From NCBI GenBank assembly GCA_016209895.1, contig JACQVH010000256.1, positions 1 to 45,820 on the forward strand: a stretch of DNA of 45,820 bases, written 5' to 3'. The first letter of the stretch is position 1. Each line of letters opens with the position of its first letter. The notes below the pieces were generated by a model that saw nothing but the letters and a program-made list of their open reading frames with translations, was not told the origin of the DNA and made no database searches. Source of the DNA: Candidatus Hydrogenedentota bacterium (GTDB taxonomy: Bacteria; Hydrogenedentota; Hydrogenedentia; Hydrogenedentales; SLHB01). Shown piece by piece: positions 8,229-27,828 of this stretch. Position numbers and translations under genes: made by a program.

Positions 8229-8993
8229 GTGATAAGTTCGAGCCTGAGAGTGATTATCCGGATTCTGTTGCTCACACTGCACACGTCATTCTGGCTCGGC
8301 GTGCACTTTGCCGCCCGCCTTGTGGTCCTTTTCACCCCCGGCTTGGACCGAACCAGCCGCGCATTCGTTTTCCGAAACTGGGCCCGCGGCGTGGGACGTA
8401 TCGTCGGTATGCGCCTCCAAATCCGCGGCACACCGCCCCCGAGTCCGTTTTTCCTGGTTTCGAACCATCTGAGCTACCTCGACGTCTTTGTCCTGGCGCG
8501 GAATTCCGGCGGGGTATTCGTCGCGCGGGAAGATTTGCAACGTTGGCCGCTTTTCGGTTTCCTTTCATCCTTGATGAACACCATTTACATCGATCGTTTG
8601 AACCGTAGGGATACGCTGCGCGCGAACGATGCGATTTCGCTGGCCCTGGACCGCAGCGAGAATCTCATCGTGTTCGCCGAAGCCTATATTTCCTCCGGAC
8701 AGGAAGTGCGCCCTTTCAAATCCGCGCTGCTTTATTCGGCGGCGCAACAAGGCCTTCCGGTATACTACGCAACCCTGGGCTATCGAACCCCCAACGACGA
8801 TCCGCCTGCGTCGGTGGTACTCTGCTGGGCCCACGGGGAAACCTTCGGGAGACACGTCCTGCGTCTACTGCAACTCCCGCACTTTGACGCTTCGGTCACC
8901 TACGGCGACCAACCCCTCTCCGGAACCGACCGCAAAATCCTCGCCGACCAACTCTGCGCCGCCGTCCGCAAGAACTTCGTACCCATTAAATAG
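8229..8993 (+). CDS. PlsC-like lysophospholipid acyltransferase
   Basis: 254 residues, normal for 1-acyl-sn-glycerol-3-phosphate acyltransferases, which make phosphatidic acid at the inner membrane. Residues 5-35 are hydrophobic (membrane anchor). The catalytic HX4D box is NHLSYLD (about 79-85). The glycerol-phosphate box, usually FPEGTRS, is degenerate here (FAEAYISSG), so the acceptor may differ. RPFKSALL and VYYATLGY follow as in the family. The start is GTG at 8229 with AAGGA about 11 bases upstream. The stop codon TAG lies inside the first copy of the long palindrome. It is convergent with oppF. Confidence 0.82.
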   Translation: MISSSLRVIIRILLLTLHTSFWLGVHFAARLVVLFTPGLDRTSRAFVFRNWARGVGRIVGMRLQIRGTPPPSPFFLVSNHLSYLDVFVLARNSGGVFVAREDLQRWPLFGFLSSLMNTIYIDRLNRRDTLRANDAISLALDRSENLIVFAEAYISSGQEVRPFKSALLYSAAQQGLPVYYATLGYRTPNDDPPASVVLCWAHGETFGRHVLRLLQLPHFDASVTYGDQPLSGTDRKILADQLCAAVRKNFVPIK

Positions 8994-9045
8994 GGACAGC
9001 CACCTATTATTTGAAGCAAATAATAGGTGGCTGTCCCTATTTAAT
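8985..9045. repeat. Long palindromic repeat, copy 1 (perfect 29-bp arms)
   Basis: Left arm 8985-9013 and right arm 9017-9045 are exact reverse complements, with a 3-base AAG loop. The arms contain AAATAGGGACAG and CACCTATTATTTG. The plsC stop TAG (8991-8993) is inside the left arm, and the oppF stop (9052-9054) is 6 bases beyond the right arm. The length, the position between convergent genes and the related copies at 21583 and 27726 mark it as a dispersed element. A bidirectional terminator role is plausible. Confidence 0.92.
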
Positions 9046-9051
9046 ACTGGG

Positions 9052-10038
9052 TCATCGGATCGAATCCAACTTCAGGCAGGTCGCGGCGTGGCCAGGCTCC
9101 CGTTCGTCAAACGCCGGGACTTGGCATTTGCAACGCTCGTCGGCATATGGACACCGCGGGTGAAAGGCGCAACCTGCCGGGGGATTCAGCGGCGAGGGCG
9201 GCTCGCCGGGAAGGAACTGCCGCATGCGGGCGCGGTCTCGTTTGGGGTCCGGTATGGGGATCGCGTGGAGCAACGCGCGAGTGTACGGATGCAGCGGATT
9301 CATGAACACGCGCTCAGTGGGCCCGATTTCCACGATTTTCCCAAGATACATCACCGCGATCCGTTGCGAAATGTGCCGAACCACTGCCAAGTCATGCGAG
9401 ATGAAGACGAGCGTCAGGCCGGTGCTCTTGCAGAGACCGGCAATCAAATTCAGAATCTGTGCCTGCACCGATACGTCGAGCGCCGACACCGGCTCGTCGG
9501 CAACGAGCAGTTTGGGCTTCAACGCGAGCGCGCGTGCAATTGCGATCCGTTGTCGTTGGCCGCCGGAAAATTCGTGCGGATACTTCCGCATATCGCGCGC
9601 CGACAAGCCAACCGATTCCAATAACTCCACAACGCGAGAAACCGTGCCCTGGCGCGGCGCCAACCGATGGGCGCGCAACGGTTCGGCCAACGCGTCCAAT
9701 ACCGTCATGCGTGGATTGAGCGACGCGTATGGGTCTTGGAAGACCATTTGCAGAGATCGACGCGTCTTCTTGAGCGCCGCGTGCGAAAGACCCCTAAGAT
9801 CTACGCCATCGAACTTGATCTGCCCGCCCGTCGCCGGAACCAGTTGAACTATGGTCCGCGCCAAAGTGGATTTTCCGCAGCCCGACTCGCCCACCAGCCC
9901 TGTGACTTCTCCGGGTTGCACGTCGAGCGTGACCCCATCTACGGCCTTCACCATCGCCGTCCGTCGCCCGAACGGGAGACCGACCCGAACCGGGAAATAG
10001 GTCCTGACATCCTGAAGTTCGAGAAGCGGCTGCATCAT
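9052..10038 (-). CDS. oppF: Oligopeptide ABC transporter ATPase, OppF/DppF type
   Basis: 328 residues. It hydrolyses ATP at the inner membrane to drive peptide import, paired with OppD. Walker A is [13 protein letters not shown], the signature is FSGGQRQRIAIARAL, and Walker B is LLVADEPVSALD. The C-terminal oligopeptide/dipeptide extension follows: HPYTRALLHAIP, then GCAFHPRCPYADERC with the paired cysteines seen in iron-sulfur-type Opp/Dpp ATPases. The ATG at 10038 overlaps the oppD stop by ATGA, so translation is coupled. It is the last gene of the operon and ends 6 bases from palindrome copy 1. Confidence 0.93.
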   Translation of the reverse strand: MMQPLLELQDVRTYFPVRVGLPFGRRTAMVKAVDGVTLDVQPGEVTGLVGESGCGKSTLARTIVQLVPATGGQIKFDGVDLRGLSHAALKKTRRSLQMVFQDPYASLNPRMTVLDALAEPLRAHRLAPRQGTVSRVVELLESVGLSARDMRKYPHEFSGGQRQRIAIARALALKPKLLVADEPVSALDVSVQAQILNLIAGLCKSTGLTLVFISHDLAVVRHISQRIAVMYLGKIVEIGPTERVFMNPLHPYTRALLHAIPIPDPKRDRARMRQFLPGEPPSPLNPPAGCAFHPRCPYADERCKCQVPAFDEREPGHAATCLKLDSIR

Positions 10039-11009
10039 ATCTCCCCGGCTTGCACGCGCAGACACGCCGAGGCGTGGTCGTCACCGACCGGCTGCAAGGA
10101 CACCGGAGTTTCTCGGCACGCGTCAACCACGTGAGGACAACGCGGCGCGAACGGGCAGCCCCGTATCTCGCCCAACAAATCGGGTGGGCGTCCCGGCACA
10201 TTGAGCAACGGTTGACCCGGCTGGTGCGCGGCCGGAAGCGTCTCCAAGAGCGCCTTGGTGTACGGATGTCGAGGCCTATAGAAGATGGCGTCGGTACCGG
10301 CGCTCTCCACGATCCGTCCCGCATACATGACCAATACGCGGTCGCACGTGCCCGCCACAATACCCATGTCGTGCGTGATCAGCGCGACCGCCGCCCCCGT
10401 CTCCTGTTGAGCCTTCTTGATGACGGCTAGCACTTGCGCTTGTACCGTCACGTCGAGGGCGGTGGTGGGTTCGTCCGCGATCAACAGTTGCGGCCCCGTG
10501 ATCATCGCCATGGCGATCATGACGCGCTGGCGAAGTCCCCCGGAAAGTTGATGCGGATACGCGCGCATGCGGCGTTCGGCGTCCGGGATGCCGACGTTTT
10601 GCAGGGCGGTCACGGCTCGTGACCAGGCCTCTCGGCGGGAACACGACGGGTGCAGACGTAACGGTTCCATGACCTGCGTCCCCACCCGCAGATACGGATT
10701 CAGCGCGGACATCGGGTCCTGAAAAATCATCGCGATGTGCCGCCCGCGTATCGCGCGGAGTTGGCCCGTTGTACAACGCAGCAGGTCCCTTCCGTTGAAA
10801 TGCGCCGTACCGCTCTCGATGCGACCCGGCGGCGACGGAATCAAGCCCAGCAATGACAGAAACGTCACCGACTTGCCGCAGCCGGATTCGCCCACGATGC
10901 CCACGGTCTCGCCGCGCTCGATCGAAAACGAAACACTATCCACGGCATGGACGACGCCATGGCGCAGATGAAACCGCAGGCGAAGGTCCTTTACGGAAAG
11001 TACCGACAT
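10035..11009 (-). CDS. oppD: Oligopeptide ABC transporter ATPase, OppD/DppD type
   Basis: 324 residues. It is the second ATPase of the importer. Motifs: Walker [16 protein letters not shown], signature [15 protein letters not shown], Walker [15 protein letters not shown], then [13 protein letters not shown] and a cysteine-containing tail [15 protein letters not shown]. The start is ATG 11009, 18 bases after oppC, with a weak GAGG ribosome site. The stop overlaps oppF. Confidence 0.93.
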
Positions 11010-11027
11010 GAAAACCTCGACTGGAAT

Positions 11028-11912
11028 TCAATCTTTTCCGGCGCGGGGATCGAGTGCATCGCGAAGTCCATCACCAAGAAAATTGAGAGAAAACAGCGTG
11101 AGCGACAATACGATGCTCGGAAAGACCACGAGCCAGGGGAAGTCCTCCATGGTCTCGACCCCTTCCTTGATCAGCAGGCCCCAGGAACTCATCGGCGCTT
11201 GAACGCCCAACCCCAGAAAACTCAGAAATGCTTCCAACAGCATGACCTGGGGGATGGTCAGCGTGCAGTACACGATGATCGGCCCGAGTGAGTTCGGGAT
11301 TAGATGCCGAAACAGGATACGACGCCGAGAATAACCAAGCACGACCGCCGCTTCTATGAATTCCTTCTTCCGGAGCGACATAACCTGACCGCGCACGATA
11401 CGCGCCATCGTGAGCCATTCGACGGCGCCGATCGCCAGGAAGAGTAGAACAAGATTCCGGCCCAGGTACACCATAAGAATAATGACGAGGATCGTAAACG
11501 GCAACGTGTACAGGATGTCCACGACTCGCATCATTACCGAATCCGTACGCCCGCCCAGAAAACCCGCCAGCGCGCCGTAGGTGACGCCGATGAGCAGTGA
11601 CACCGCGGTAGCCGCGAAGCCAACCATGAACGAGACTCGTCCCCCGTATAGAATTCTCGTGAGCAAGTCGCGGCCGAGTTGATCCGTACCCAACCAATGG
11701 GCTTGGCGCGGAGCTACGGAGCCGAGCTCGAGGTTCTGGGCCTCATACGAATAGGGTGCCATCCACGGCGTAATGACGCACAGGAAGAGCATGACAATAA
11801 GCACGCCGCCGCCGCCGACCGCGGCCCGGTTCTGCCGGAGCCGTCGCCAGGCATCCTGCCCAAGCGAGCTCCCCTTCTCGGCCTCAAGCATCGGCTGCGG
11901 CTGCGCGTCCAT
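11028..11912 (-). CDS. oppC: Oligopeptide ABC transporter permease, OppC/DppC type
   Basis: 294 residues. It is one of the two membrane channel subunits. The cytoplasmic N-terminus leads into a first membrane segment (about residues 30-55), then the OppC signature HWLGTDQLGRDLLTRILYG, and five further membrane segments. The EAA loop that contacts the ATPase is KKEFIEAAVVLGYS. I chose ATG 11912, five bases after the oppB stop. An in-frame GTG at 11948 would overlap oppB by 31 bases and is less likely. Confidence 0.92.
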   Translation of the reverse strand: MDAQPQPMLEAEKGSSLGQDAWRRLRQNRAAVGGGGVLIVMLFLCVITPWMAPYSYEAQNLELGSVAPRQAHWLGTDQLGRDLLTRILYGGRVSFMVGFAATAVSLLIGVTYGALAGFLGGRTDSVMMRVVDILYTLPFTILVIILMVYLGRNLVLLFLAIGAVEWLTMARIVRGQVMSLRKKEFIEAAVVLGYSRRRILFRHLIPNSLGPIIVYCTLTIPQVMLLEAFLSFLGLGVQAPMSSWGLLIKEGVETMEDFPWLVVFPSIVLSLTLFSLNFLGDGLRDALDPRAGKD

Positions 11913-11917
11913 ATCGC

Positions 11918-12835
11918 TCAACTCAGGCGCACTCGCGGGTCCAGCCACGCCTGGACGATGTCCACAATCAAGTTGAAAAGCAAGATCAGCCCGGCGTAGA
12001 ACAGCACCGTGCCCATGATCATCGTGTAGTCCCGATTAAACGCGGCTTGAATGAATTCGCGTCCCAATCCCGGCACCTGGAAAATCGTCTCCACCACAAA
12101 CGACCCGGTCAGCAGCCCCGCCGCCGCCGGACCCAGAAACGTGACCACGGGCTGCATCCCACCCCACAGCGCATGGCGCAGCACAACGCCGGTTTCGGAC
12201 ACACCTTTCGCGCGGGCTGTACGCACAAAATCCTGCGCAAGCATTTCGAGCATCCCAGCGCGACTCAGCCGAGCCACGTACGCGGCGTAGGCCGCGCCCA
12301 GTGTGATCGAAGGAAGCACCTTATCCTGCTGCAAGTCCCACCCAGCCACCGGAAACCATTCCAGCCAAAGCGCGAACACGAGCACCAGCAACGGTCCCAA
12401 AACAAAGTTGGGGATGCAGATGCCCGCCATGGCGAGCGACATCGGTACGTGGTCGGTCGCGGTGTTCGGTCGAAGCGCGGCCAAGAATCCCGCCGCCAGG
12501 CCGATGAGCAGCGCCACGCCCAAGGCATAAAGGCCGAGCTCCAGAGATACCGGAAAGCGCAGCGCGATCCACTCGCTCACCGTCAGAGTCGGCTTCTTGA
12601 AGGACGGACCCAGGTCCCCGTGCGCCAAATCTCGAAGGTAATCAAAGTACTGGACGTACAAGGGCGCGTCCAAATTGTAATACTCGTTCAAACGCTTGAG
12701 CACTTCCTCGGGCACCGCACGTTCCGCGGCGAAGGGACCTCCGGGCGCCAGTCGGATGAGGAAAAAAGTCAGCGTTACGATGATGAAGAACACCGGCACG
12801 AATTCGAGCAGACGGCGTAGGACAAATCTCAGCAT
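11918..12835 (-). CDS. oppB: Oligopeptide ABC transporter permease, OppB/DppB type
   Basis: 305 residues. It is the partner channel subunit. The N-terminus MLRFVLRRLLEFVPVFFII is the typical first membrane segment of OppB, followed by RLAPGGPF and the NLDAPLYVQYFDYL region. Six membrane segments are visible, and the EAA-type loop is QDFVRTARAKGVSE. The start has a close GAGGA ribosome site. It lies 25 bases after oppA. Confidence 0.93.
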   Translation of the reverse strand: MLRFVLRRLLEFVPVFFIIVTLTFFLIRLAPGGPFAAERAVPEEVLKRLNEYYNLDAPLYVQYFDYLRDLAHGDLGPSFKKPTLTVSEWIALRFPVSLELGLYALGVALLIGLAAGFLAALRPNTATDHVPMSLAMAGICIPNFVLGPLLVLVFALWLEWFPVAGWDLQQDKVLPSITLGAAYAAYVARLSRAGMLEMLAQDFVRTARAKGVSETGVVLRHALWGGMQPVVTFLGPAAAGLLTGSFVVETIFQVPGLGREFIQAAFNRDYTMIMGTVLFYAGLILLFNLIVDIVQAWLDPRVRLS

Positions 12836-12860
12836 CCATTCCTCGCGCTTTTCGTAACTT

Positions 12861-14486
12861 TCATTTCGCTCCGCACGTCTCGAAATACACGTTCTTGTAA
12901 ATCACGTAGCCTAGCAAATTCTCATCCCAGCCCTTGAGCTCCGGCACGCGCAAATAAACCCTCCGGTATAGGTAGATCGGCGCGATGGGCGCTTGGTCGA
13001 GAAGAATGCGCTCCGCTTCTTGAAACAATCGGTACCGCTCGCCTTGCTCCGGTGTTTTCGCCGCTCGCCCGATCAGTTCGTCGTACCGGGCGTCGGAGAA
13101 CCCCGTGCGATTATTGCCCCCACCGGTCAGAAAACAATCGAGGAAAGAATTGGGGTCATAATAGTCGCCAATCCACGAGGATCGTGCAACGTAGTAATCC
13201 ATGTTCGTGAGGGCGTCCAAATAGACTTTCCAGTCTTGGTTGACCAACGTCACGCTCGCGTTCAGGTTTTTCTTCCACATCTGCTGCACTGCCTCCGCGA
13301 TCAGCTTGTGCTCTTCGCTGGTATTGAAAAGCAGCTCGACGGGCGGCAGGCCGCGGCCGTCCGGAAAACCCGCCTCTGCCAGCAACCGTTTGGCCGCCGC
13401 CACGTCATACGGAATGGACGCCGTGCACGTGTAGCCGGCCGTATTCGGCGGAGTGAAGCAGGCCGTCGGTTCATAGGCTCCGTGGAGGAGATTCTTCGTG
13501 ATCAGTTCACGATCAATGCTCATCGCAAAGGCGCGCCGTACCCGCACGTCCGTGAAGGGCGCGCGCGCGCAGTTGAAACGGTAGAAGTAGCTGCCCAGGA
13601 ACGGATGCATACGAAGATACTGCGGCATGGTCGCACGGAACTTTGGCAGCCGGCTCTTGCGCACCGCGTCGGTGACGTGCAGACCTCCCGCGCGGAAAGT
13701 AAGTTCTTCGGTCTGGAGGTTGTCAATCGGATAAAAGTTGATTTCCTTCAATCGCACCGCATTCGCATCCCAATAATATGGATTCTTCGCGACCGTAATG
13801 ATGCGGTTCGGCCACCATTTCGTTAGAAGGAACGGTCCGTTGCTGACCATGTTCCCCGCCTGAGTCCATTTCGTGCCGCGCTCATCTATGCGCCCGAACC
13901 GCTCGATGTTGGCGCGATGTACCGGGAAGAAGGAGAAGTGGATTTGCATGGCCGGGAAATACGGCGTCGGATTCTCAAGCGTCACTTCCAGTGTGCGCTC
14001 ATCCAACGCCCGCGCCCCGACTTGGCCGAAATCCGTCAGACGCCCCTCATTGAACACCTTGGCGTTCCAGATGCAATGCAACATATAGGCGTATTCGGAA
14101 CCCAGACCGGGGGAGAGATTTCGCTGCCAGGCGTACACGTAATCGTGCGCCGTTACCGGGTCGCCGTTCGACCATTTGGCGTTCTCCCGAATGGTGAACC
14201 GGTATACCTTCCCGTCGTCCGACACCGTCCACGATTCTGCGGCTGCGGGCTTAGGCTCGAGCGTAGTCCCGTCCAGCGTGGCGAGACCCTCGAACAGCGA
14301 GGTCAGGATTTTGTGTTCCGTGAAGCCCGACACCAAGTGCGGGTCCAGCGCCTGTGGTTCCGCCCCATTCCCCATATGAAGCACGCCCTCTCGGATACCA
14401 ATCGCCGCCCGATCCTCGCGAAATAGGCAGCCGGTAAACGCCGCCGTCGAGACTACCGTGAGTATACCTATGCGGATGGGCTTCAC
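12861..14486 (-). CDS. oppA: Peptide-binding lipoprotein, OppA (SBP family 5)
   Basis: 541 residues, the usual size for OppA/DppA. It captures peptides in the periplasm for the OppBCDF importer. I place the start at GTG 14486. From there the protein has a basic N-terminus (MKPIR), a hydrophobic core and a lipobox AFTGC with Cys20, so it is a membrane-anchored lipoprotein. This start also lies about 50 bases downstream of a good promoter, whereas longer in-frame starts would lie upstream of it. Family features include GNGAEPQALDPHLVSG, the AESWTVSDDGKVYRFTIRE strand, WSNGDPVTAHDYVYAWQR and the C-terminal YLYRRVYLRVPELKGW. It is the first gene of oppABCDF. Confidence 0.92.
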   Translation of the reverse strand: MKPIRIGILTVVSTAAFTGCLFREDRAAIGIREGVLHMGNGAEPQALDPHLVSGFTEHKILTSLFEGLATLDGTTLEPKPAAAESWTVSDDGKVYRFTIRENAKWSNGDPVTAHDYVYAWQRNLSPGLGSEYAYMLHCIWNAKVFNEGRLTDFGQVGARALDERTLEVTLENPTPYFPAMQIHFSFFPVHRANIERFGRIDERGTKWTQAGNMVSNGPFLLTKWWPNRIITVAKNPYYWDANAVRLKEINFYPIDNLQTEELTFRAGGLHVTDAVRKSRLPKFRATMPQYLRMHPFLGSYFYRFNCARAPFTDVRVRRAFAMSIDRELITKNLLHGAYEPTACFTPPNTAGYTCTASIPYDVAAAKRLLAEAGFPDGRGLPPVELLFNTSEEHKLIAEAVQQMWKKNLNASVTLVNQDWKVYLDALTNMDYYVARSSWIGDYYDPNSFLDCFLTGGGNNRTGFSDARYDELIGRAAKTPEQGERYRLFQEAERILLDQAPIAPIYLYRRVYLRVPELKGWDENLLGYVIYKNVYFETCGAK

Positions 14487-14541
14487 GAGTCGTTGTCCGC
14501 TCCTGACTCCGGCTACAGTAAATCCCTCGTGGACACACGCG

Positions 14542-14571
14542 ATTATACCGGCTGCCTGACCCAATTCCCAA
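14542..14571 (-). promoter_or_regulatory. Candidate promoter of the opp operon
   Basis: On the minus strand a perfect TATAAT (14542-14547) lies 18 bases from TTGGGA (14566-14571). The start site would be near 14535, leaving a leader of about 49 bases to the GTG at 14486. This supports the shorter oppA start. Confidence 0.5.
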
Positions 14572-14576
14572 GGCAG

Positions 14577-14601
14577 CACGACACGATTGCCAATTGTCGT
14601 G
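14577..14601. promoter_or_regulatory. Possible regulator-binding dyad upstream of the opp -35
   Basis: CACGACA (14577-14583) and TGTCGTG (14595-14601) are exact reverse complements with an 11-base spacer that itself contains ATTG-C-CAAT. The dyad ends 5 bases upstream of the -35 hexamer, a typical place for an activator site. The binding protein is unknown. Confidence 0.35.
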
Positions 14602-14852
14602 GCCTTGACGCCCGCGCCGAACTTGTGCGAGGTTCAGTTCGCAGACTTCGGGGCCTTGCGGTCTCCACTATGCGCAAAGGAGTCCTCAACTGACCTGCGC
14701 CTCGTCCATCGCCGCAATTGTGAATTCGAGGCGTATCTCCGGCGGCTGGTCCTCCACCCCGACCCACCGGCGGAGGAATTCAAACATCGGATGAGCGACG
14801 AATGCCAGCGACGAGCGCTACATCCATACGTGAACGGCCTGGGGCAGTGCGG

Positions 14853-15350
14853 TCATTTTGCTTTGGTGATTTTCTCTCCGTTGAACTCGAGACCGTACCC
14901 CACAATGTCGAGGAAGTGTTCTTCACCTTTATCGTCGTAGATTCGGACGCGGCTGCCGACAACTTCCCATTTAGCGCAGACCCGTCCGTTCATCGCCCAG
15001 CGCCCATCCGGCAGGAACTGCATCCAGATGACGTCCTGTTCCCACTGGGTTCCGGCGAGGGACGCAGCGGTGAGGTAAGCCGCTGGCGCGGGCGGGTCCG
15101 GCGGCTTGGACGCCTCCTCGGTTTTCAGCTCGGGGGCGGCGGGAATCTCTACAACCGGTTCTGGCGGGGGTTGAACGACTGGCTCAACGGGTTCGGGCCG
15201 AGGCGCAGGGGCAGATTGAATGGGCCGGGGCGGGATCTGCGCACTTTCCGGAACATCGGATGGGGCAGGTGTGGTCTTCCAGACGGCAATGGCGCCAACG
15301 CATGCAAGAAGCAGTGACACCACGACAATCAGAACATTCCTCGACTTCAT
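14853..15350 (-). CDS. Membrane-anchored protein with proline-rich linker and small C-terminal beta domain
   Basis: 165 residues, family not recognised. Residues 1-24 form an N-terminal membrane anchor or signal (MKSRNVLIVVVSLLLACVGAIAVW). Residues 27-90 are a proline/glutamate-rich linker (PAPRPEPVEPVV and similar). Residues 95-165 look like a compact beta domain (GTQWEQDVIWMQFLPDGRWAMNG, then KWEVVGSRVRIYDD and FNGEKI), reminiscent of lipocalin-like or META-type small domains. The start has GGGAG about 10 bases upstream. It lies downstream of the PqaA-like gene on the same strand, separated by a strong hairpin. The role is unknown. Confidence 0.65.
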   Translation of the reverse strand: MKSRNVLIVVVSLLLACVGAIAVWKTTPAPSDVPESAQIPPRPIQSAPAPRPEPVEPVVQPPPEPVVEIPAAPELKTEEASKPPDPPAPAAYLTAASLAGTQWEQDVIWMQFLPDGRWAMNGRVCAKWEVVGSRVRIYDDKGEEHFLDIVGYGLEFNGEKITKAK

Positions 15351-15436
15351 TCGGCTGTCTCCCTATCCGTAAGCAGGCTGCACGTTCACTTCGCATTAAC
15401 TCCGCTCAGGGGTTTCACCCACGTCGGCTGATCCTA

Positions 15437-15470
15437 AGCCCCGCCCCGCAGCGAACCGCGGGGCGGGGCT
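15437..15470. terminator. Very stable GC hairpin between the PqaA-like and proline-rich genes
   Basis: A perfect 13-bp stem (arms 15437-15449 and 15458-15470) with an 8-base loop AGCGAACC. It begins 33 bases past the PqaA-like stop (15503) and 87 bases before the next start. There is no T-tract on either side, so it could be a factor-dependent terminator, an RNA-stability structure or a processing site rather than a classical terminator. Confidence 0.5.
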
Positions 15471-15502
15471 CCTCGGCCAGTTAACATCTTACATTTTACA
15501 AC

Positions 15503-19667: not shown

Positions 19668-19722
19668 TCGGAGGAGCGGGTCGTGCCGCCGCACCCGGCT
19701 CGACGCGGCATCAGGTAGGAAA

Positions 19723-20739
19723 ATGAAACGTTGTGCACGGATACTCGTGTTGTCCTGGATGATTGCGGGTTGTACCCAGGTGGTCTCGGAACCGAACCAT
19801 TCCACCGTAGCCGCCGCTACGCCGCTGGCCCAAACACCGGACGTGCGTGCGCCCGAACAAACGCTCGGACTGCCGGCGGAAAATTACCCCACCGAGTCCG
19901 TCAACCCTCTCGAGGAACTTCAGGAAGCGTTGCAGGCGATCGAGTCCGTGAGCAAAGCGTATCGCTCAGACCTCCCGATATCGGAAGGCGTTTACAGTGT
20001 ACCTGCGACGGCGGTAGCGGCCGATCCCGCCGAGGCCGAATTGCCGGCTACAGAACCCGCTGAAACGGCTGAAGATTTCGCGGGCCCAAACGCCTTGCGC
20101 CAAGTCACTCTCGCCCGACTTCACGATGAATTAGTGGAATTGAAAGTCGAGGTACAGCGGCTTCACGACTCATTTGAATTCTACTCCGGGCCATTTGTGG
20201 ATGATCTGAAATCCGAAAACGCGCGGTTACGAAACGAAGTGCGACGACTCCGCGGCCTCGAGGGCGCCCCGCCCGACACGGAGTTGGCCGGCGCGCAAAT
20301 CCCGGGCGCCGCGCCGACTGAGGAGACGGTCGAGCCGCTGACCGAGGAAGCCCCGATCCCGTCCGCGCCGCCGGCGTTGGCCAACGTCAACGGCATCAAC
20401 TACTCCGTAGTAACCGAATGGGGCCGCTCTCCCGAGGACGCCAGGGATTTCGGAAAGGACGTCACCTCGCTTAAGGGTATGGTCTGTGTCGTACCGTCAA
20501 AGACCAAGGATGACGACTTGATCGCGCTGGGACGATGGTTGCGGCAGGAGCATGCCGATTACGACAACATCAACATCGAAGTATTCGATGACCTTGACGC
20601 TGCGAAAACGTATGCCGAACAGAACTCGGCCCCCGGCGATCATCGGGTGTTGAGTGTTTCCAAGCACCGGAGTTCCGGCCGCGATCTGATCATCCTGACG
20701 CGAGGCGAATCGCCGCGTGAGTTGTCGCCCGGTCCCTGA
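19723..20739 (+). CDS. Lipoprotein with coiled coil and unknown C-terminal domain
   Basis: 338 residues, family not recognised. The N-terminus MKRCARILVLSWMIAGC is a lipoprotein signal with Cys17. Residues 18-125 are low complexity (Pro, Ala, Glu, Thr). About 128-182 form a coiled coil (LARLHDELVELKVEVQRL, LKSENARLRNEVRRLR). Residues 226-330 look like a folded alpha/beta domain (GINYSVVTEWGRSPEDA, LKGMVCVVP, DNINIEVFDD, HRVLSVSKHRSSGRDLIIL). TAGGAAA sits just before the ATG. It follows the transketolase by 55 bases and may share its transcript. Confidence 0.72.
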   Translation: MKRCARILVLSWMIAGCTQVVSEPNHSTVAAATPLAQTPDVRAPEQTLGLPAENYPTESVNPLEELQEALQAIESVSKAYRSDLPISEGVYSVPATAVAADPAEAELPATEPAETAEDFAGPNALRQVTLARLHDELVELKVEVQRLHDSFEFYSGPFVDDLKSENARLRNEVRRLRGLEGAPPDTELAGAQIPGAAPTEETVEPLTEEAPIPSAPPALANVNGINYSVVTEWGRSPEDARDFGKDVTSLKGMVCVVPSKTKDDDLIALGRWLRQEHADYDNINIEVFDDLDAAKTYAEQNSAPGDHRVLSVSKHRSSGRDLIILTRGESPRELSPGP

Positions 20740-20844
20740 AAACGGGAAGTCGGTCGAGCGCGAGTTGCGAAATTCTAAGCCCGTTCGATAGCTTCTATAG
20801 GTCGTTTAGGTCCTATTGGGGGTCTACCGTCTCGCGCTCGGCTG

Positions 20845-20853
20845 TGCTATGCT
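20845..20853 (+). promoter_or_regulatory. Candidate extended -10 promoter for the AMMECR1 gene
   Basis: TGC followed by TATGCT (20848-20853), in the context CTGTGCTATGCT. It gives a leader of about 75 bases to ATG 20932. No convincing -35. Confidence 0.4.
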
Positions 20854-20931
20854 AAAGTCAGTTGCGAGCCGCGATATGCGGTCCGGACACAAACCGAGGA
20901 CCCCGTACCTACAAACGGCAGGGAGTGGAGC

Positions 20932-21588
20932 ATGGGCAGTGGGGGAGGCGGCATCATGAATCTCGATACGAAAGAGAATTATCTGACCGATGAGGAAGAG
21001 GTCAGCCTGCTCCTGGTTGCACGGGACACACTCGAATACTGGGTTCGACGTGGCCAACGAGTCGGCGTTGAACGGTACGCCCTCACACCGAAGCTTTGGG
21101 AAAAACACGGGGCTTTTGTCACACTGAAAAAAGCGGGCGAATTGCGCGGCTGCATCGGCTACACCGCCAATCGCGAGCCGCTCGTGATCGCGGTGCAAGA
21201 CAACGCCATCAATGCCGCCTCTCGAGACCCGCGATTCTCATCGGTAACTCCGGACGAGTTGGACGATATCACTATCGAAATCTCCGCCATGACCTCGGGC
21301 GATGACCCGGATACACCGTTCCGGCAAGTGCACGATATCCAAGAGATTATCATCGGCAGAGACGGACTGTTTATCGAGACGCCGCCGCTGCGCGGCGGGC
21401 TGCTCTTACCGCAGGTAGCCGTCGAGGAGGACTGGAACGTCCAGCAATTCCTGTCTGCGCTCTGCCGCAAGGCCGGATATCCGGACGGCGCTTGGCGCGA
21501 TACCGAACGCACCCGCTTATACCGTTTTTCCGCACAAGTCTTCCGAGAGGTGCAGCGCCGAGACCTCGCGATCAATCCGGATGATTAA
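20932..21588 (+). CDS. AMMECR1-domain protein (AmmeMemoRadiSam system A type)
   Basis: 218 residues. The AMMECR1 core is clear: GAFVTLKKAGELRGCIGY (with the conserved LRGCIG), AVQDNAINAASRDPRFSSVT, DDITIEISAMT, then IIIGRDGLFIE and LLLPQVAVEEDWNVQQFL. In many bacteria this domain is encoded with a Memo-like dioxygenase and a radical SAM enzyme, but neither is adjacent here. The molecular role is not established. ATG 20932 has GGGAGTGGAG upstream; an in-frame ATG at 20956 is an alternative. The TAA stop (21586-21588) lies in the left arm of palindrome copy 2. Confidence 0.9.
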   Translation: MGSGGGGIMNLDTKENYLTDEEEVSLLLVARDTLEYWVRRGQRVGVERYALTPKLWEKHGAFVTLKKAGELRGCIGYTANREPLVIAVQDNAINAASRDPRFSSVTPDELDDITIEISAMTSGDDPDTPFRQVHDIQEIIIGRDGLFIETPPLRGGLLLPQVAVEEDWNVQQFLSALCRKAGYPDGAWRDTERTRLYRFSAQVFREVQRRDLAINPDD

Positions 21589-21660
21589 ATAGGGACAGTC
21601 ACCTATTATTTGCAGTAAATAATGGGTGACTGTCCCTATTTAATCTGTCCCCATTTAAAG
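21583..21660. repeat. Long palindromic repeat, copy 2, with extra half-site
   Basis: Arms of 29 bases (21583-21611 and 21617-21645) differ at one position that would still form a G-U pair; the loop is GCAGT. An additional half-site, CTGTCCCCATTTAAA, follows directly (21645-21659). The AMMECR1 stop lies in the left arm and the purine phosphorylase stop (21655-21657, minus strand) in the extra half-site. The arm sequence differs from copy 1 mainly by compensated changes (CAGTCACC/GGTGACTG against CAGCCACC/GGTGGCTG), which indicates the hairpin is maintained. Confidence 0.92.
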
Positions 21661-22359
21661 TGTCCGGATAGCATCGCGCAAGACTCGAATGATTCCTTTC
21701 GAACTCCGGCGTGCGGTCTCCAGAACCTCTCTATGCGTGAGGAGCCGCGCGGCGCAGCACGAGTTCGTCACGCACGAAAGGACCGCCGTGCGGATGCCGA
21801 GGGACTGCGCACGCTCTAATTCCGGCGCCGCGCTCATCCCGATTACCATACCACCGAGTGACTGTAGCGCACGGATTTCAGCCCGGGTCTCATAACTCGG
21901 ACCGTGCATCCAAATGTACTCGCCTGTGACGGCGCACCCGGGAACCAGGACGTTGGGGGTGAGCGTATCCGGCGTATTCTCCCAGCCTGGGTACGGCCAG
22001 CATCGTACCGAACTGACTGCGACTAAGTCGCCGGGCCGCAGTTCCGGACACAGACCTCCAGCGGCGTTGAGCAGCACCGCGGTATCCACACCAAATTCCC
22101 GCAAAATCCCCATGGGTCGGGTAACCGCTTCAAAGTCTAAGCCTTCGTAAACGTGTAGACGGCCGCTTTGCAGGATTACCCGACGCGTTCCGCAACGACC
22201 GAAAAGAAAGCGCCCTTCGTGTCCTTTGATGCCGGCGGGATGAAGCTGTGGGAAGGATGCGAAAGGACGCTCCCACAACACTTCGTCCAGTAACGGACCG
22301 GCGTCCATTCCCGAACCGGACACGACGCCAATCGTGGAAGACTGCTCTACGCCGGCCAT
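21655..22359 (-). CDS. Purine nucleoside phosphorylase / MTA phosphorylase family
   Basis: 234 residues, somewhat short for the family (about 260-280). It phosphorolyses purine nucleosides in salvage. Family motifs: IGVVSGSGMD (phosphate loop), LNAAGGLCPELRPGDLVAVSS, MHGPSYETRAEIRALQ, VIGMSAAPELERAQ and SCVTNSC, where the Asn contacts the purine base. Whether it prefers guanosine/inosine or methylthioadenosine cannot be settled by eye, though the Asn favours 6-oxopurines. The ATG at 22359 overlaps the end of the dGTPase gene by 13 bases, so translation is probably coupled. The stop is provided by palindrome copy 2. Confidence 0.85.
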   Translation of the reverse strand: MAGVEQSSTIGVVSGSGMDAGPLLDEVLWERPFASFPQLHPAGIKGHEGRFLFGRCGTRRVILQSGRLHVYEGLDFEAVTRPMGILREFGVDTAVLLNAAGGLCPELRPGDLVAVSSVRCWPYPGWENTPDTLTPNVLVPGCAVTGEYIWMHGPSYETRAEIRALQSLGGMVIGMSAAPELERAQSLGIRTAVLSCVTNSCCAARLLTHREVLETARRSSKGIIRVLRDAIRTL

Positions 22360-23369
22360 GCCGCTGGAAAGAAAAGCTGCTGGTACAGTTGCAGCGCGTA
22401 GTGATCAGTCATTCCCGCGATAAAGTCCACCGTACGCCGTTCGAGCGAATCACTGGAGTCGCCCGCCGCACTCTCGTTCGTGGGGCGCTCCAGCAGGCGG
22501 AAATACATTTCCCCGAGCAGCTTCTTGGCTTTCGTGATTTCGGTGTAGATCGCCGGATGGGGATACACGTGCTCATAAAGGTGATTGCGTAACTCGTGCG
22601 TAGCGGCGCGGACCTCGTCGGTCATGCTGATGGGGCCGCCCTGGCTGCCGCCAATCAGGGCGCCGACCATCATATTGATGCGTTCCGACGTGGTCCGTCC
22701 CAAAACGCGAATGGAATTCCGGGGCAAATCCTCCATTGTGATCAGTCCGCCGCGGATGGCATCGTCTATGTCATGGTTCACATACGCGATCGCGTCGCAA
22801 ATACTGACCAGTTCGCCTTCCAACGTTGCGGCGCTGCGAATACGCTGGCCTTGAAAGAGGGACTTGCCTTTCGAGTGGTTTAGAATCCCGTCGCGGACCT
22901 CGAACGTCAGGTTCAATCCGGGACCGGCGCGGCCCGCTTCGAGTTTATCCACGATGCGCAAGCTCTGCTCGAAATGCCGGAAGCCGGGTTCGTACACCTC
23001 GTTTAGCGCCGCCTCGCCGGCATGACCAAAAGGTGTATGGCCGAGATCGTGGCCCAGCGCTATGGCTTCAGTGAGATCCTCGTTTAGAAACAGGGCTCGC
23101 GCTGCGGTGCGCGCAATCTGCGCGGCTTCCAAGGTGTGCGATAGCCGCGTTCGATAGTGATCGCCTTCCGGCGCGAGGAACACCTGGGTCTTACGTTTGA
23201 GTCGGCGAAAGGCTTTGGAATGAAGAATCCGATCCCGGTCCCGCTGGAAGGCCGTCCGATACTCATGTTCCGGTTCGGGATGCAGACGACCTCGGGACTG
23301 CGCCGCCTGCGCTGCGTGGGAGCCCAAGGTCTGTCGTTCGCGTTCCTCCAGCGCTTCCCGGATGGTCAC
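22347..23369 (-). CDS. dgt: dGTP triphosphohydrolase-like HD protein
   Basis: 340 residues, the size of the shorter dGTPase-like (type 2) proteins. These remove triphosphate from deoxynucleotides and help set dNTP pools. The N-terminus has EYRTAFQRDRDRILHSKAFRRL. The HD set is H in RLSHTLEAAQIART, HD in ALGHDLGHTPFGHAGE, and a distal Asp in ICDAIAYVNHDIDDAI. The start is GTG 23369, 10 bases after the phosphoesterase stop. It is followed by the purine phosphorylase, an arrangement that fits a purine nucleotide turnover operon. Confidence 0.9.
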   Translation of the reverse strand: MTIREALEERERQTLGSHAAQAAQSRGRLHPEPEHEYRTAFQRDRDRILHSKAFRRLKRKTQVFLAPEGDHYRTRLSHTLEAAQIARTAARALFLNEDLTEAIALGHDLGHTPFGHAGEAALNEVYEPGFRHFEQSLRIVDKLEAGRAGPGLNLTFEVRDGILNHSKGKSLFQGQRIRSAATLEGELVSICDAIAYVNHDIDDAIRGGLITMEDLPRNSIRVLGRTTSERINMMVGALIGGSQGGPISMTDEVRAATHELRNHLYEHVYPHPAIYTEITKAKKLLGEMYFRLLERPTNESAAGDSSDSLERRTVDFIAGMTDHYALQLYQQLFFPAAWPA

Positions 23370-23379
23370 GTGCGGCTTC

Positions 23380-24111
23380 TTATTTCCCCCTTACCAAACG
23401 ATTGGCGAGTTCAATGGGCAACCCGGACTGTACGATCTTCCGGGCGCAGGCATCTATGTCGTAATCCACGCGGCAAAACTCGAACGTCAACTTGTCGGTA
23501 TCGAACAGGCCGAAAGCGGCGCGCGAATCACGGTCCCGAGGCTGGCCCACGGCGCCCGGGTTAATGAAGTACCGATTGCCGGCCCGCAACTGGTGAACAC
23601 TGCAAGAAGTGAGATTATTGATGGAACCCTTTTCACTGAAGAGGGAAGGACGATGGCTGTGACCAAAGAAGCAGATGGTAATTTCCCGGCCATCAAGAAA
23701 CTCGAGCTGGCGCATCGCGTCGAGCCAGTCCGTAATATAGTCATCACGACTGCTCGGCGACCCATGCACCCCCAGGCAAGTACAGTTGAACCGGACTTGT
23801 TCCGGCGCGTTGGAGAGCCAGCGCTTGTGTTCTTCGTGAAGTTGCTCGAATTGCCACTCGATAGCCTTTTTCGCGGCCGCTCGGAAGAACCACGGGTCTT
23901 CGAGACCGCACACGGCCGCGTCATGATTCCCCATCACGGTCGGGATTTCGCGCTCGCGAACCAACTCGACTACTTCGTTGGGGTTGGCGTTGTAACCGGT
24001 CAAATCGCCCAGACAGACAATCTTATCCGGCTTGCGCTGGTCAATTTCCTTGAATATGGCCTGCGTGGCCTCCAGATTGGCGTGGAGGTCAGCGATAACG
24101 GCGATCAACAT
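23380..24111 (-). CDS. Calcineurin-like metallophosphoesterase (YfcE/MJ0936 type)
   Basis: 243 residues. The five metallophosphoesterase blocks are all present: ADLHANLEA, CLGDLTGYNANPNE, MGNHDAAV, GVHGSP and FGHSHRPS. These proteins use two metal ions to hydrolyse phosphomonoesters or diesters, some acting on cyclic nucleotides or nucleotide signals. The ATG at 24111 has CAGGAAG about 9 bases upstream. Downstream genes follow within 10 bases, which suggests a shared transcript with the dGTPase-like and purine phosphorylase genes. Confidence 0.9.
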   Translation of the reverse strand: MLIAVIADLHANLEATQAIFKEIDQRKPDKIVCLGDLTGYNANPNEVVELVREREIPTVMGNHDAAVCGLEDPWFFRAAAKKAIEWQFEQLHEEHKRWLSNAPEQVRFNCTCLGVHGSPSSRDDYITDWLDAMRQLEFLDGREITICFFGHSHRPSLFSEKGSINNLTSCSVHQLRAGNRYFINPGAVGQPRDRDSRAAFGLFDTDKLTFEFCRVDYDIDACARKIVQSGLPIELANRLVRGK

Positions 24112-24194
24112 GCGATACTTCCTGCGTAAACATATATGAACAAATATGAATACTTAGTTAACAACTGGCGGCCCCGAAGTCATCCAGAAAAACG

Positions 24195-25154
24195 CTATAC
24201 CGTTTCCTCTTTCGGGCTTTCCGGCGCAACGCGCGCTCCTTTTTCCATTATCCGGCGCAACTGGGCCGCTTTCTTTATGGCATGGCCGTTTCGCGGGTCC
24301 ACTTTGAGGATGCCCTCCATGCACTCCAGCGCCTGGGGGTATTCGCGCCGCTTGATAAACTGAATACCGATATTGTACTGGGCGAAAAGTATCTTCTTCC
24401 GTAACCGGCCAGACTGCGGATGGCGTTTCCCCGCCAACCGATATTGCTCCAACGCCGCAGAATAGTTCCGAGTCTCGAAATAGAAGTCACCCATCGTCTC
24501 TTCTTGACTTAAGTCGCTCGTGCCTTCCAGTTTAGTCTTCGCTTTTTCCTCTCGCGCTTTTGCCGCGTATTCTTCCGGGCTGTAGACGCCTTCTACTGCG
24601 CTGCCTTCGACCAGAATGCTGATGTTATTGGACCGGGTGTCCTGCGGAATCAGGAAAAAGCGGGGTTCCTCTTCGTCGTAGCGATGCAGCGAATATCCTC
24701 GCACGACTTCACCGTCGTGAAACTCGACCACCAACTCGCCGCCTTCCGGGGTCCAATCCCGAAACCGCAGCGACTTGTCAAAGTTGCCGTCGAAGCTCTT
24801 CACATTAAACACGGCTTTCAGTTCCGAAAAGCGAACTTCGATCGTCTTTCCACTGCTTACACCATCCTTGTCCACCGGCTCCAAATAGAAGTCGTGGGCT
24901 TTGGGATTCAGCGCCAAGCACACTCCGTACACGGTACGACCATCCTGATATCGAACCACCAAACGCTGGCGTGAAGGTTTCCGTCGCGCGCCTTCGAGTT
25001 TCTTCTCCTCTTCCAGCTTCTGCGCAATGGGCCGGTAGTGTTTGCGGCAGAGCAGACTACCATCGTGCGTACTAAGACATTCCGCACACCCGAATGTCCC
25101 GCAGACACTACAATAACCCGTTACGTCGTTGCTCGGATGATTCGGACATTTCAT
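24195..25154 (-). CDS. B-box-like zinc finger protein with tandem unknown domains and TPRs
   Basis: 319 residues. Residues 1-40 form a Cys/His zinc-binding module like a B-box (C3, H6, C15, C18, C23, C26, H30, C36, H39). Residues 62-118 and 139-192 are two copies of one small beta-rich domain, each beginning V-(R/E)-(Y/F)-(Q/H)-DG-(R/E)-V-x-G and ending in a V/A-F/V-G/N turn. Residues 218-290 hold two or three TPR-like helical repeats (GDFYFETRNYSAALEQYRLA; NIGIQFIKRREYPQALECME). No membrane segment, so it is probably a cytoplasmic interaction protein. The start ATG 25154 is set by GAGGAG about 7 bases upstream. It lies 83 bases before the phosphoesterase gene. Confidence 0.75.
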   Translation of the reverse strand: MKCPNHPSNDVTGYCSVCGTFGCAECLSTHDGSLLCRKHYRPIAQKLEEEKKLEGARRKPSRQRLVVRYQDGRTVYGVCLALNPKAHDFYLEPVDKDGVSSGKTIEVRFSELKAVFNVKSFDGNFDKSLRFRDWTPEGGELVVEFHDGEVVRGYSLHRYDEEEPRFFLIPQDTRSNNISILVEGSAVEGVYSPEEYAAKAREEKAKTKLEGTSDLSQEETMGDFYFETRNYSAALEQYRLAGKRHPQSGRLRKKILFAQYNIGIQFIKRREYPQALECMEGILKVDPRNGHAIKKAAQLRRIMEKGARVAPESPKEETV

Positions 25155-25474
25155 GTCACGCTCCTCGCCGGGTCGTCCAGCGGAACCACGTAATTCACCT
25201 GCGGGAGCGTTCATCATACCTTCTACCTGAAAGGTACCATGAACCTCTCGCACTGTCAAAAGGTAAAAACTGCCTAACCCTTTGACACGGCGTCGGTTGG
25301 ACGATGGGTGAGGCCTGCCACACAAGCCCCGCCGGCCACCTCAGACTTTCCGGCGGAATCCCGTAATAGCGACCCCACGTGCACCGAACCATTTTAATTC
25401 ATCCGAAAGGACAAAACAAGCCAAATCTTCGCTAAAACCGGAAAACTGCGATTCTTATCCTCTGCCGAGAGGAA
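25155..25474. other. 320-base intergenic region between galK and the zinc-finger gene
   Basis: It holds a small hairpin directly after galK (25458-25473, TCCTCT-GCCG-AGAGGA, possible terminator) and a candidate promoter with palindrome (25224-25259). Nothing else I can support. Confidence 0.5.
25224..25259 (-). promoter_or_regulatory. Candidate promoter with overlapping 13-bp palindrome
   Basis: On the minus strand a perfect TTGACA (25254-25259) is 17 bases from TACCTT (25231-25236). The weak -10 lies within TACCT-GAA-AGGTA (25224-25236), a perfect inverted repeat that could be an operator. Transcription would start near 25224, 70 bases before ATG 25154. Confidence 0.45.
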
Positions 25475-26848
25475 TCAGCTTGGCGCCAGATAACCTGCGC
25501 CGGCACTGGTTCGCGCAATTAACATTCTTTCCGGCAGCTCCACCGTTTGCTGCCGACGGCTCATGAACGCGTGATAGTACTTTCGCTCGACCTCCGCACC
25601 GAACTGCTCGAGGAGACCGTTGTGCACCAAGTTGACCGTACATCCCCCAAAGCCGGCGCCGGTCAGTCGCGCACCCAGCGCCCCTGCCTCACGAGCGATG
25701 GCCACCAGCGCCTCGAGTTCCGGACAGCTCACGTAGTAGTCCGTTGCACAACTTTCGTGGGAACGGTTCATCAACTGGCCCAACTCATCTGCATCGCCGG
25801 CCTGCAAGGCGTCACGAGCGGCTTCGACCCGCTGATACTCGGTAAGTTGGTGTCGAGCGCGCGACCGCAGATGAAAGCCACGCTCCGGCTCTTTGAGATC
25901 GCCCAACCACCGCCGCCGAATTTCCTCTGTGGTTATGTTTAAGCGCTGTGCAATCTGCTTCAGGGTCATACGTTCGGTCGGCAAAGACCGGTCAAAAAGG
26001 GATTGCACCTCCTCGTGCGTGAGGCATAAGTGCCCGTGCCACAGGTCCGCTAGGCGCGCAATCTCGACGGTGCTATCGAAATCGGTTTGAACTTGTCGTT
26101 CCACGAGCGCGCAGATCAAACGACAGGTCAGCGGGCCCTCGTTGTAGCGATGCATCATGTCGCCGGTCTTTTCGGCGCGTACCAGCGAATGACACACGAT
26201 GAACGAATAGTCCGTTAAGAGTGGAACCTTCTCTGCGCGCAGCGGGAAGAAATCAATCTTGCACGCGGCGCCCTCCTCGCCCAGTAGCAGGATCGCCTGA
26301 TCCATTCCACCGCCCCGCGTCCCCACGTAGTGTTCGGCCTCGGCCAGAACCTGGGCCAACTCCAGGCGTGAGAGATCCTCGTCCAGGCGAATGCCCAATA
26401 TCGCGAGATACGCCAACCCGGCGGCCACCACCAGCGCGGACGACGAACTGAGGCCCGCCGCGATGGGAATGTTTCCCGACACGTACGCGTCCATCCCCGG
26501 AAACGTAGTCACGCGGAAGTATTCATTCAGTCCATGAATCGCCGCCTTGCAATAGTTTCCCCACGACCCCGGAGGCGAGGGTGGAATCGAAGCCGCATTA
26601 TTGAATTGGCAAAACGGAAAACCTGGATCGCCGGCGCGAAGCTGAACGAGACTATCGCTGCCGCCTGCAAAAGCGATCCGTATTTCGCGGTCAAGCGTCA
26701 CCGGAAGCACGGGTAAACCGTTATAGTCCGTGTGTTCTCCGATCAGATTGATACGGCCCGGTGCGCGACAGACCCGCGGCGCAGATGCACGCGGGTACGC
26801 CATCGCAAACGCCTTGAGTAATGGGTCGGCAGGATCGTTGATGATCAT
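25475..26848 (-). CDS. galK: Galactokinase (GHMP kinase family)
   Basis: 457 residues, longer than the usual 380-400. It phosphorylates galactose at C1 in the Leloir pathway, in the cytoplasm. Signature motifs: CRAPGRINLIGEHTDYNGLP (galactokinase N-terminal signature), the ATP loop AAGLSSSSALVVAAGLA, and ARLTGAGFGGCTVNLV near the C-terminus. The extra length lies mainly between about residues 225 and 345 (for example ITTEEIRRRWLGDLKEPERG). I chose ATG 26848 because it places the signature about 28 residues from the start as in E. coli GalK; a TTG at 26869 is possible. There is no clear Shine-Dalgarno. No other gal genes are adjacent. Confidence 0.88.
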   Translation of the reverse strand: MIINDPADPLLKAFAMAYPRASAPRVCRAPGRINLIGEHTDYNGLPVLPVTLDREIRIAFAGGSDSLVQLRAGDPGFPFCQFNNAASIPPSPPGSWGNYCKAAIHGLNEYFRVTTFPGMDAYVSGNIPIAAGLSSSSALVVAAGLAYLAILGIRLDEDLSRLELAQVLAEAEHYVGTRGGGMDQAILLLGEEGAACKIDFFPLRAEKVPLLTDYSFIVCHSLVRAEKTGDMMHRYNEGPLTCRLICALVERQVQTDFDSTVEIARLADLWHGHLCLTHEEVQSLFDRSLPTERMTLKQIAQRLNITTEEIRRRWLGDLKEPERGFHLRSRARHQLTEYQRVEAARDALQAGDADELGQLMNRSHESCATDYYVSCPELEALVAIAREAGALGARLTGAGFGGCTVNLVHNGLLEQFGAEVERKYYHAFMSRRQQTVELPERMLIARTSAGAGYLAPS

Positions 26849-26891
26849 CTGGAAACTAAGTTCCCGCAAGCGCGGCGCGATTGTTCCTCAT

Positions 26892-26915
26892 TCGTCCACT
26901 CGGTCCACTCCGTCC
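26892..26915. repeat. Short tandem TCNGTCCAC-type repeat
   Basis: Three imperfect units of 8-9 bases (TCGTCCAC, TCGGTCCAC, TCCGTCCA) lie between galK and the EF-hand gene. A similar GTCC-based array occurs at 40664-40693. Confidence 0.5.
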
Positions 26916-27049
26916 AAAAAGCTCCCGCAAACACGGCAGGATTGTACCGGCTCAGGCACGGTGCGTCAACGCCATCCCGGAACCTTCAATGGGATTCTGG
27001 GTTTCAAAAGTCATAACGAGCATCGGATGAATTTGAAGGAGTGAGGGTT

Positions 27050-27730
27050 ATGGATAAGTTAACTACGTGGAGCATCGCCATGGGCTTCGTGCTGGTCGTG
27101 TCGGCGAGCGCCTTGGCGGAGCCAAGGGCCGCAGGCCCGGCTAAGATGCGGGAACTGTTCGCGAAAGCCGACCAGAATGGCGACCGGCAAGTGACTCTCG
27201 AGGAACTGAAGACGGTTGCGCCGAATATGACGCCGGAGAAGTTCATGCAGCTCGACCGGAACCATGACGGCGTTCTCAGCGCGGCCGACCGGGCTCAGGC
27301 CGGTCCGGGGCAATTCGGCCCGAAACAAGGGGCGGATCGCGAACATGCCGCCCAGAAGCTCCGCGAAGCCGACGCGAACAGCGACGGCAAAGTCAGCTAC
27401 GACGAAGTGGTGGCCAAGAAACCCGGATTCCCAAAGGAAGCATTTGATCGGTACGATAGCAACCACGACGGACTGCTCTCGGCGGAAGACCGTCCCGCGA
27501 GTCCCCGTCCGCAAGGAGCCATCAGCGCGGGACCCGGCAGACCTGGACCACGACCCGGCGCTGCGGCGCGCGGACAGTTTCTTCAGAAGATGCGCGCCGC
27601 CGACACGAATAGCGACGGGAAGGTCTCCTGGGACGAAGCCCATGCGGCGTTCCCGAATATGGCCCAGGACTATTTCCAGCGCCTGGATCGAAATGGCGAC
27701 GGCGCGCTCAGCCCCGAAGACCGCAATTAA
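27050..27730 (+). CDS. Secreted six-EF-hand calcium-binding protein
   Basis: 226 residues. Residues 1-23 are a signal peptide ending ASALA-E. Six canonical 12-residue EF-hand loops follow: 41-52 DQNGDRQVTLEE, 69-80 DRNHDGVLSAAD, 108-119 DANSDGKVSYDE, 136-147 DSNHDGLLSAED, 185-196 DTNSDGKVSWDE and 213-224 DRNGDGALSPED. They form three pairs separated by proline/glycine-rich linkers (about 83-95, 148-174). Loops 2, 4 and 6 end in Asp rather than the usual Glu, so metal affinity within each pair may be unequal. ATG 27050 has GAAGGAG 9 bases upstream. The TAA stop is in the left arm of palindrome copy 3. Confidence 0.88.
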   Translation: MDKLTTWSIAMGFVLVVSASALAEPRAAGPAKMRELFAKADQNGDRQVTLEELKTVAPNMTPEKFMQLDRNHDGVLSAADRAQAGPGQFGPKQGADREHAAQKLREADANSDGKVSYDEVVAKKPGFPKEAFDRYDSNHDGLLSAEDRPASPRPQGAISAGPGRPGPRPGAAARGQFLQKMRAADTNSDGKVSWDEAHAAFPNMAQDYFQRLDRNGDGALSPEDRN

Positions 27731-27828
27731 ATGGGGACAGGCACCTATTATTTGTGCGCGTAAAGCCCACCTGGCGCATCTCCGAAACGATACACGCGCA
27801 GCAAATAGCAGATGGCTGTCCCGTTTAA
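27726..27828. repeat. Long palindromic repeat, copy 3, with expanded loop
   Basis: Left arm 27726-27754 (AAATGGGGACAGGCACC then TATTATTTG) and right arm about 27802-27828 (CAAATAGCAGATGGCTG then TCCCGTTTAA) pair imperfectly. The loop is expanded to about 47 bases and its ends (TGCGCG, CGCGCA) also pair. The left arm contains the stop of the EF-hand gene (27728-27730) and the right arm the stop of the sialidase gene (27825-27827). It is more degenerate than copies 1 and 2. Confidence 0.8.

Follow-up and report, generated by a model that had tools for sequence, protein, structure and literature searches.

The three long palindromes in the window (the whole 45,820-nucleotide stretch of Candidatus Hydrogenedentota DNA analysed here, contig C219 of a 5.34 Mb genome in 312 contigs) are very likely arm-only, non-autonomous miniature derivatives of a Y1/HUH element of the TIRYT kind that resides in the same genome. 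We base this on matching arms, the several lengths in which the elements occur, their dispersal, a filled site with its empty counterpart in a related genus, and a marked bias toward stop codons. It also draws on Y1 genes inside elements with these ends, the excess of arm matches over a control pattern, and GGGACAG-core terminal inverted repeats (TIRs) in the order. The placement rule is the gene 3' end, not the convergent junction.

Table 1. Palindromes in the window and the genes that flank them.
Feature	Position	Strand	Remarks
plsC-like acyltransferase	8250..8993	+	ends FVPIK*; length as in orthologues
Compact palindrome copy 1, TTAAATAGGGACAGCC subtype	8985..9045		between plsC and oppF; supplies the plsC TAG
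oppF-like ABC ATPase	9052..10038	-	stop 6 bp beyond the palindrome; ~6-7 residues shorter than orthologues
AMMECR1-domain gene	20932..21588	+	gene caller, Pfam, orthologue comparison
Compact palindrome copy 2	21583..21645		between AMMECR1 and purine phosphorylase; supplies the AMMECR1 TAA
Extra partial arm (CTGTCCCCATTTAAA)	21645..21660		contains the phosphorylase TAA
PNP_UDP_1 phosphorylase gene	21655..22359	-	gene caller, Pfam, orthologue comparison
EF-hand protein gene	27050..27730	+	gene caller, Pfam, orthologue comparison
Degenerate longer copy 3	27726..27828		between EF-hand gene and sialidase; its two TTAA ends hold the TAA of both genes
BNR-repeat (sialidase-like) gene	27825..29879	-	gene caller, Pfam, orthologue comparison

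The sequence-only reading described three related palindromes between convergent gene pairs, occupying half of the convergent junctions and nothing else. This is what we find: the inverted repeats lie where it placed them (Table 1), its names for the flanking genes match the Pfam assignments, the codon-model gene caller gives six convergent junctions of which three carry a copy, and an arm search of the window returned no further copies. Copy 1 has perfect 29-bp inverted arms around a loop of 3 nt, and copy 2 is a 29-bp inverted repeat at 97%; copy 3, at 103 bp, is their degenerate relative. RNA folding z-scores are -12.6, -11.0 and -4.0, respectively, and an Rfam gathering search gave no match. 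The arm ends had also been said to form the stop codons of every flanking gene except oppF. Checked base by base, the TAG of plsC (8991-8993) lies inside the arm of copy 1, the TAA of AMMECR1 (21586-21588) within that of copy 2, and the TAA codons of the EF-hand gene (27728-27730) and the sialidase (27825-27827, minus strand) inside those of copy 3, and oppF does end 6 bp outside. The claim needs qualifying for the phosphorylase, whose stop (21655-21657, minus strand) falls in the extra half-arm ~10 bp outside the main palindrome. Elsewhere in the window, positions 561-4169 hold a large gene with an internal repeat of period 231 bp.

A genome-wide search for inverted arm pairs, which the same reading had proposed, shows that the palindrome is dispersed. 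Allowing up to two mismatches, the arm pattern matches 61 places in the genome, against none for a reversed control pattern, and ~19 of these are compact palindromes measuring 53-103 bp. Their consensus reads TTAAATAGGGACAGTCACCTATTATTTG-AAG-CAAATAATAGGTGACTGTCCCTATTTAA, with CACCGTTTATTTG as a second subfamily; nearly every compact copy has TTAA at its two ends, and the foot of the hairpin is TTAAATAGGG. Elements in the genome fall into several length classes (transposase-bearing, internally deleted ~630 bp, ~175 bp and ~59 bp). In a scan of named genomes, the arm was also found in Candidatus Hydrogenedentota MAGs, Planctomycetota/Phycisphaerales, Eremiobacterota, Aminicenantes and others.

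The sequence-only reading supposed a REP-type (Y1) transposase behind a mobile palindrome, and genes for one are indeed present in this genome, inside elements with the same ends. The protein matches PF01797 above its cut-off, carries the motifs NHVH and YVELNP, and has a C-terminal extension, where subclass 2.1 would have an HTH-like domain, in which no Pfam domain was matched. Its match to the solved TnpArep 4ER8 is weak (E=0.0024), and NCBIfam NF047646 scores 61.5 bits on a partial protein, under the cut-off of 80. The transposase gene sits in longer elements whose TIRs are the palindrome arm (AAATAGGGACAGTCACC). Part of the gene reaches the element end, (T)AAATAGGGACAG[TC]CACCGTTTAT, at the contig ends of C181, C248, C252, C207, C10 and C24, with a base change in some copies. 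Many contigs break off within the element, as a multicopy repeat would cause; this genome has no full-length, intact transposase element assembled on one contig, nor was an autonomous partner identified in it for the TATTATTTG subfamily, the one in the window. The two TIRs flanking the transposase gene were seen one at a time on contigs here, and both ends of one element are seen in relatives. Shortened forms include an internally deleted copy of ~630 bp (C254) and two ~175-bp end-to-end derivatives (C252). A relative occurs in 31 of the 68 genomes of the order, and where ends are detectable they are mostly GGGACAG-core TIRs on elements mostly of 740-815 bp. Against the GGGGWSAS consensus, most copies in this genome have AGGGACAG, one base off, and window copy 3 and relatives such as L124 and L131 have GGGGACAG. 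A second Y1 transposase gene (L067:2150-3170, on C56) has inverted ends of another kind (AAAGGGGTCAGTCAATAGTA-type), partial copies of which lie nearby.

Copy locations were judged on individual genomic loci with a home-made codon-model gene caller. By hand tally, a gene stop lies no more than 24 nt from 15 of the 19 compact copies (p=2e-8), against a null of 18.8% for TTAA sites outside coding interiors; plain TTAA targeting is thus insufficient as the full cause of placement. The bias toward convergent 3' ends predicted by the sequence-only reading is partly borne out: 9 of the 19 occupy convergent junctions (p=0.002, hand-tallied), but convergence is not enriched once stop proximity is allowed for (p=0.21). 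Longer copies of the same TIR type show no clear enrichment at stops, with 4 of 16 near one (p=0.002 against the compact copies; hand-tallied, many with one visible side). Relative to the arm, stops are found in each of the three registers. Depending on frame, translation that runs into a perfect copy reads ATT AAA TAG, or TAA, or reaches TGA after 14 codons, the last exit being seen as C-termini that end in LNRDSHLLFEANNR*.

Related genomes repeat the pattern. In G009, 10 of 18 arm loci, a hand-tallied set that includes single arms, are within 24 nt of a stop (p=6e-4). One G009 copy is matched by a syntenic empty site in the congener G021: in the empty site the stops of two convergent genes overlap at CTAA, and in the filled site the element supplies the stops of both genes. 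Precise loss in G021, instead of insertion in G009, would be a possible reading of this one pair, at ~80% identity. A further palindrome family in G009 (GAGGGACAG[AG]CACCGTGTTTCGC; L242-L247, L250, L251 and L254) has no clear tie to gene ends.

The strongest case is G035, with 30 elements of ~131 bp (L274-L302, e.g., L286:1501-1613). Of these, 26 lie within 11 nt of an upstream stop (p=3e-11 on the 24-nt test). Tandem spacers hold 24 of the 30, with the next gene beginning 12-43 nt away for most copies, and none is in a divergent spacer; together with the conditional test above, this rules out convergent junctions as the primary rule. The elements are of constant length, with perfect shared ends (GGGACAGTCACCTATTATTCGA plus an outward GAAATTA) and interiors of 68-71 nt whose similarity from copy to copy is close to random (mean identity 0.517, versus 0.492 when shuffled). 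They are REPIN-like in form, and two such hairpins bracket the transposase gene. At positions 7-10 outside GGGACAG, the copy-specific bases on left and right are inverted-complementary in 97, 97, 80 and 73% of cases (79, 50, 38 and 27% when shuffled), with an abrupt fall at position 11; the window's genome shows a weak echo at position 8. This symmetry could reflect a palindromic target, inverted duplication or template switching.

We propose that the TIRYT would drive single-strand transposition of arm-only copies, which may then be retained at, or directed to, gene 3' ends owing to the stop codons that every arm carries. The outer end of an arm would provide TAG or TAA in two frames and perfect copies a TGA after 14 codons in the third, so that translation entering on either strand and in any frame would end within a few codons of its native site. 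Bidirectional termination or RNA stabilisation may be a by-product. The scattering of the longer copies favours retention by selection, and the tight offsets, the TTAA at both ends and the dyad-symmetric flanks in G035 favour some target preference. A broader view, which we hold tentatively at a little under even chances, is that miniature TIRYT elements are a class specific to translation stops, where the stop codons they carry make insertion nearly harmless. In some lineages, such as G035, they would exist as hairpins of constant length whose ends are invariant and whose interiors drift freely, giving a REPIN-like population to a transposase subclass reported without REPs.

Active choice of gene ends by the transposase or the compact derivatives, guided by a TTAA/YTAR-like target or by structure at the stop codon, would make this targeting and not tolerance. 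We regard this as possible but lean against it. It would account for the very tight offsets in G035, the sharp edge of the flank complementarity at position 10, the TTAA termini and the CTAA that spans both stops of the empty site. However, it sits poorly with the scarcity of TTAA sites near stops, with stops in all three registers and with the dispersed longer copies that share the same TIR.

The hairpins might instead belong to the host and be kept at gene ends by selection, as bidirectional terminators or as stabilisers of RNA 3' ends; we consider this unlikely. Their position at gene 3' ends fits this idea, as does their stability: perfect copies fold at about -45 kcal/mol (z -11 to -14). 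A loose terminator consensus is matched by copy 1 on both strands and by copy 2 on the plus strand only, and by copy 3 on neither. However, terminator-like matches across the region are at chance in a consensus scan (21 versus 20.5), and the arm tail, UAUUUAA, is weakly T-rich and itself paired. Strong termination would also often be costly in the tandem spacers of G035, where the next gene starts so close. Paired copy-specific arm changes had been taken as a sign of selection on the hairpin or of recent copying. Such pairing is seen in copies 1 and 2, though not in copy 3, and in a set of 12 distinct compact sequences, where 97.6% of cells are paired and 5 pairs have changed on both sides. 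The changes reduce mostly to one T-A/C-G position plus a TATT/GTTT block that tracks the TIR subfamilies. They are not sufficient as proof of selection. A role as bidirectional terminators is nonetheless plausible from the predicted folds, alongside the origin as miniature TIRYT derivatives that we prefer.

Most genes that end in a palindrome keep nearly their native length. About 14 affected genes end within ~8 codons of the ends of same-family orthologues, as in plsC (FVPIK*, orthologue FTPVG*), a membrane protein (MRYDPIK*, orthologue MKYDPSA*) and RVWQIPL-NRDSH... (orthologue RVWQIPLNALAE*); one gene on C206 is ~22-26 residues shorter than its single orthologue. Five gene pairs flanking G035 elements were scanned, and where Pfam assigns both members the families differ, so these elements do not split genes. 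Random insertion inside genes, with the stop at the arm marking truncation, is suggested by the stops in two frames of the arm outer ends and by the short C206 gene, but the orthologue comparison and the G035 families largely refute it and leave it very improbable.

Among described systems, the closest are TIRtrons with their TIRYT, or TIR-associated tyrosine transposases (PMC3733652; TnpA-Y1 subclass 2.1, PMC6006769). Common to both are a Y1 transposase that carries NHVH and Y-x-x-NP motifs, long TIRs that appear related to GGGGWSAS, and further copies of the TIR sequences in the rest of the genome. Unlike those of TIRtrons, the TIRs here also form compact perfect palindromes on stop codons, and G035 has REPIN-like hairpins around its transposase gene, whereas no REP-like sequences were reported near subclass 2.1 (PMC6006769). 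REPs, including GTAG REPs and BIMEs with RAYT (PMC2817692, PMC3733652), are likewise dispersed extragenic palindromes tied to a Y1 transposase and near gene 3' ends. Most REPs are found between convergent or unidirectional genes; those at convergent junctions are usually no more than 20 bp from the 3' ends, and GTAG REP termini often supply a TAG stop (PMC3733652). The compact copies differ in having no GTAG/GTRG foot, in a unit that is a 59-bp fully symmetric double arm, and in a transposase closer to the TIRYT type. REPINs (PMC3116915) combine a pair of conserved inverted ends with a fixed-length spacer that is less conserved, a likeness strongest in G035; the window copies are almost without a spacer, and their ends are TIRYT-type TIRs, not REPs. 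As in MITEs, end-only non-autonomous copies share their TIRs with an autonomous element of the genome they reside in, but the parent is a Y1/HUH element and not a DDE transposon, and there is no clear direct target duplication. That REP ends supply stops near gene 3' ends was already known (PMC3733652). New relative to these papers are the compact palindromic MITE forms of TIRYT placed on stop codons, the orthologue evidence that genes keep their length, and a REPtron-like arrangement in which a transposase resembling subclass 2.1 is accompanied by hairpins of constant length and variable interior. A dispersed gene-end hairpin is tied here to a specific transposase type, with stop-codon placement in three genomes, and targeting versus tolerance of single-strand transposons at gene ends becomes directly testable. 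The G035 arrangement suggests that TIRYTs may maintain REPIN-like hairpin populations. The literature search on transposase repeats in Hydrogenedentes found nothing relevant.

The palindromes themselves harbor another element. An IS-like sequence with ends GAATGGCGCTAAGTTAAG lies inside them at at least six places (L055, L061:5048-5582, L062, L065:2969-3207, L069 and L070), comparable to the insertion sequences that target REPs (PMC1525189), and in L065 it is bounded by an 11-bp direct repeat, GTGACTGTCCC.
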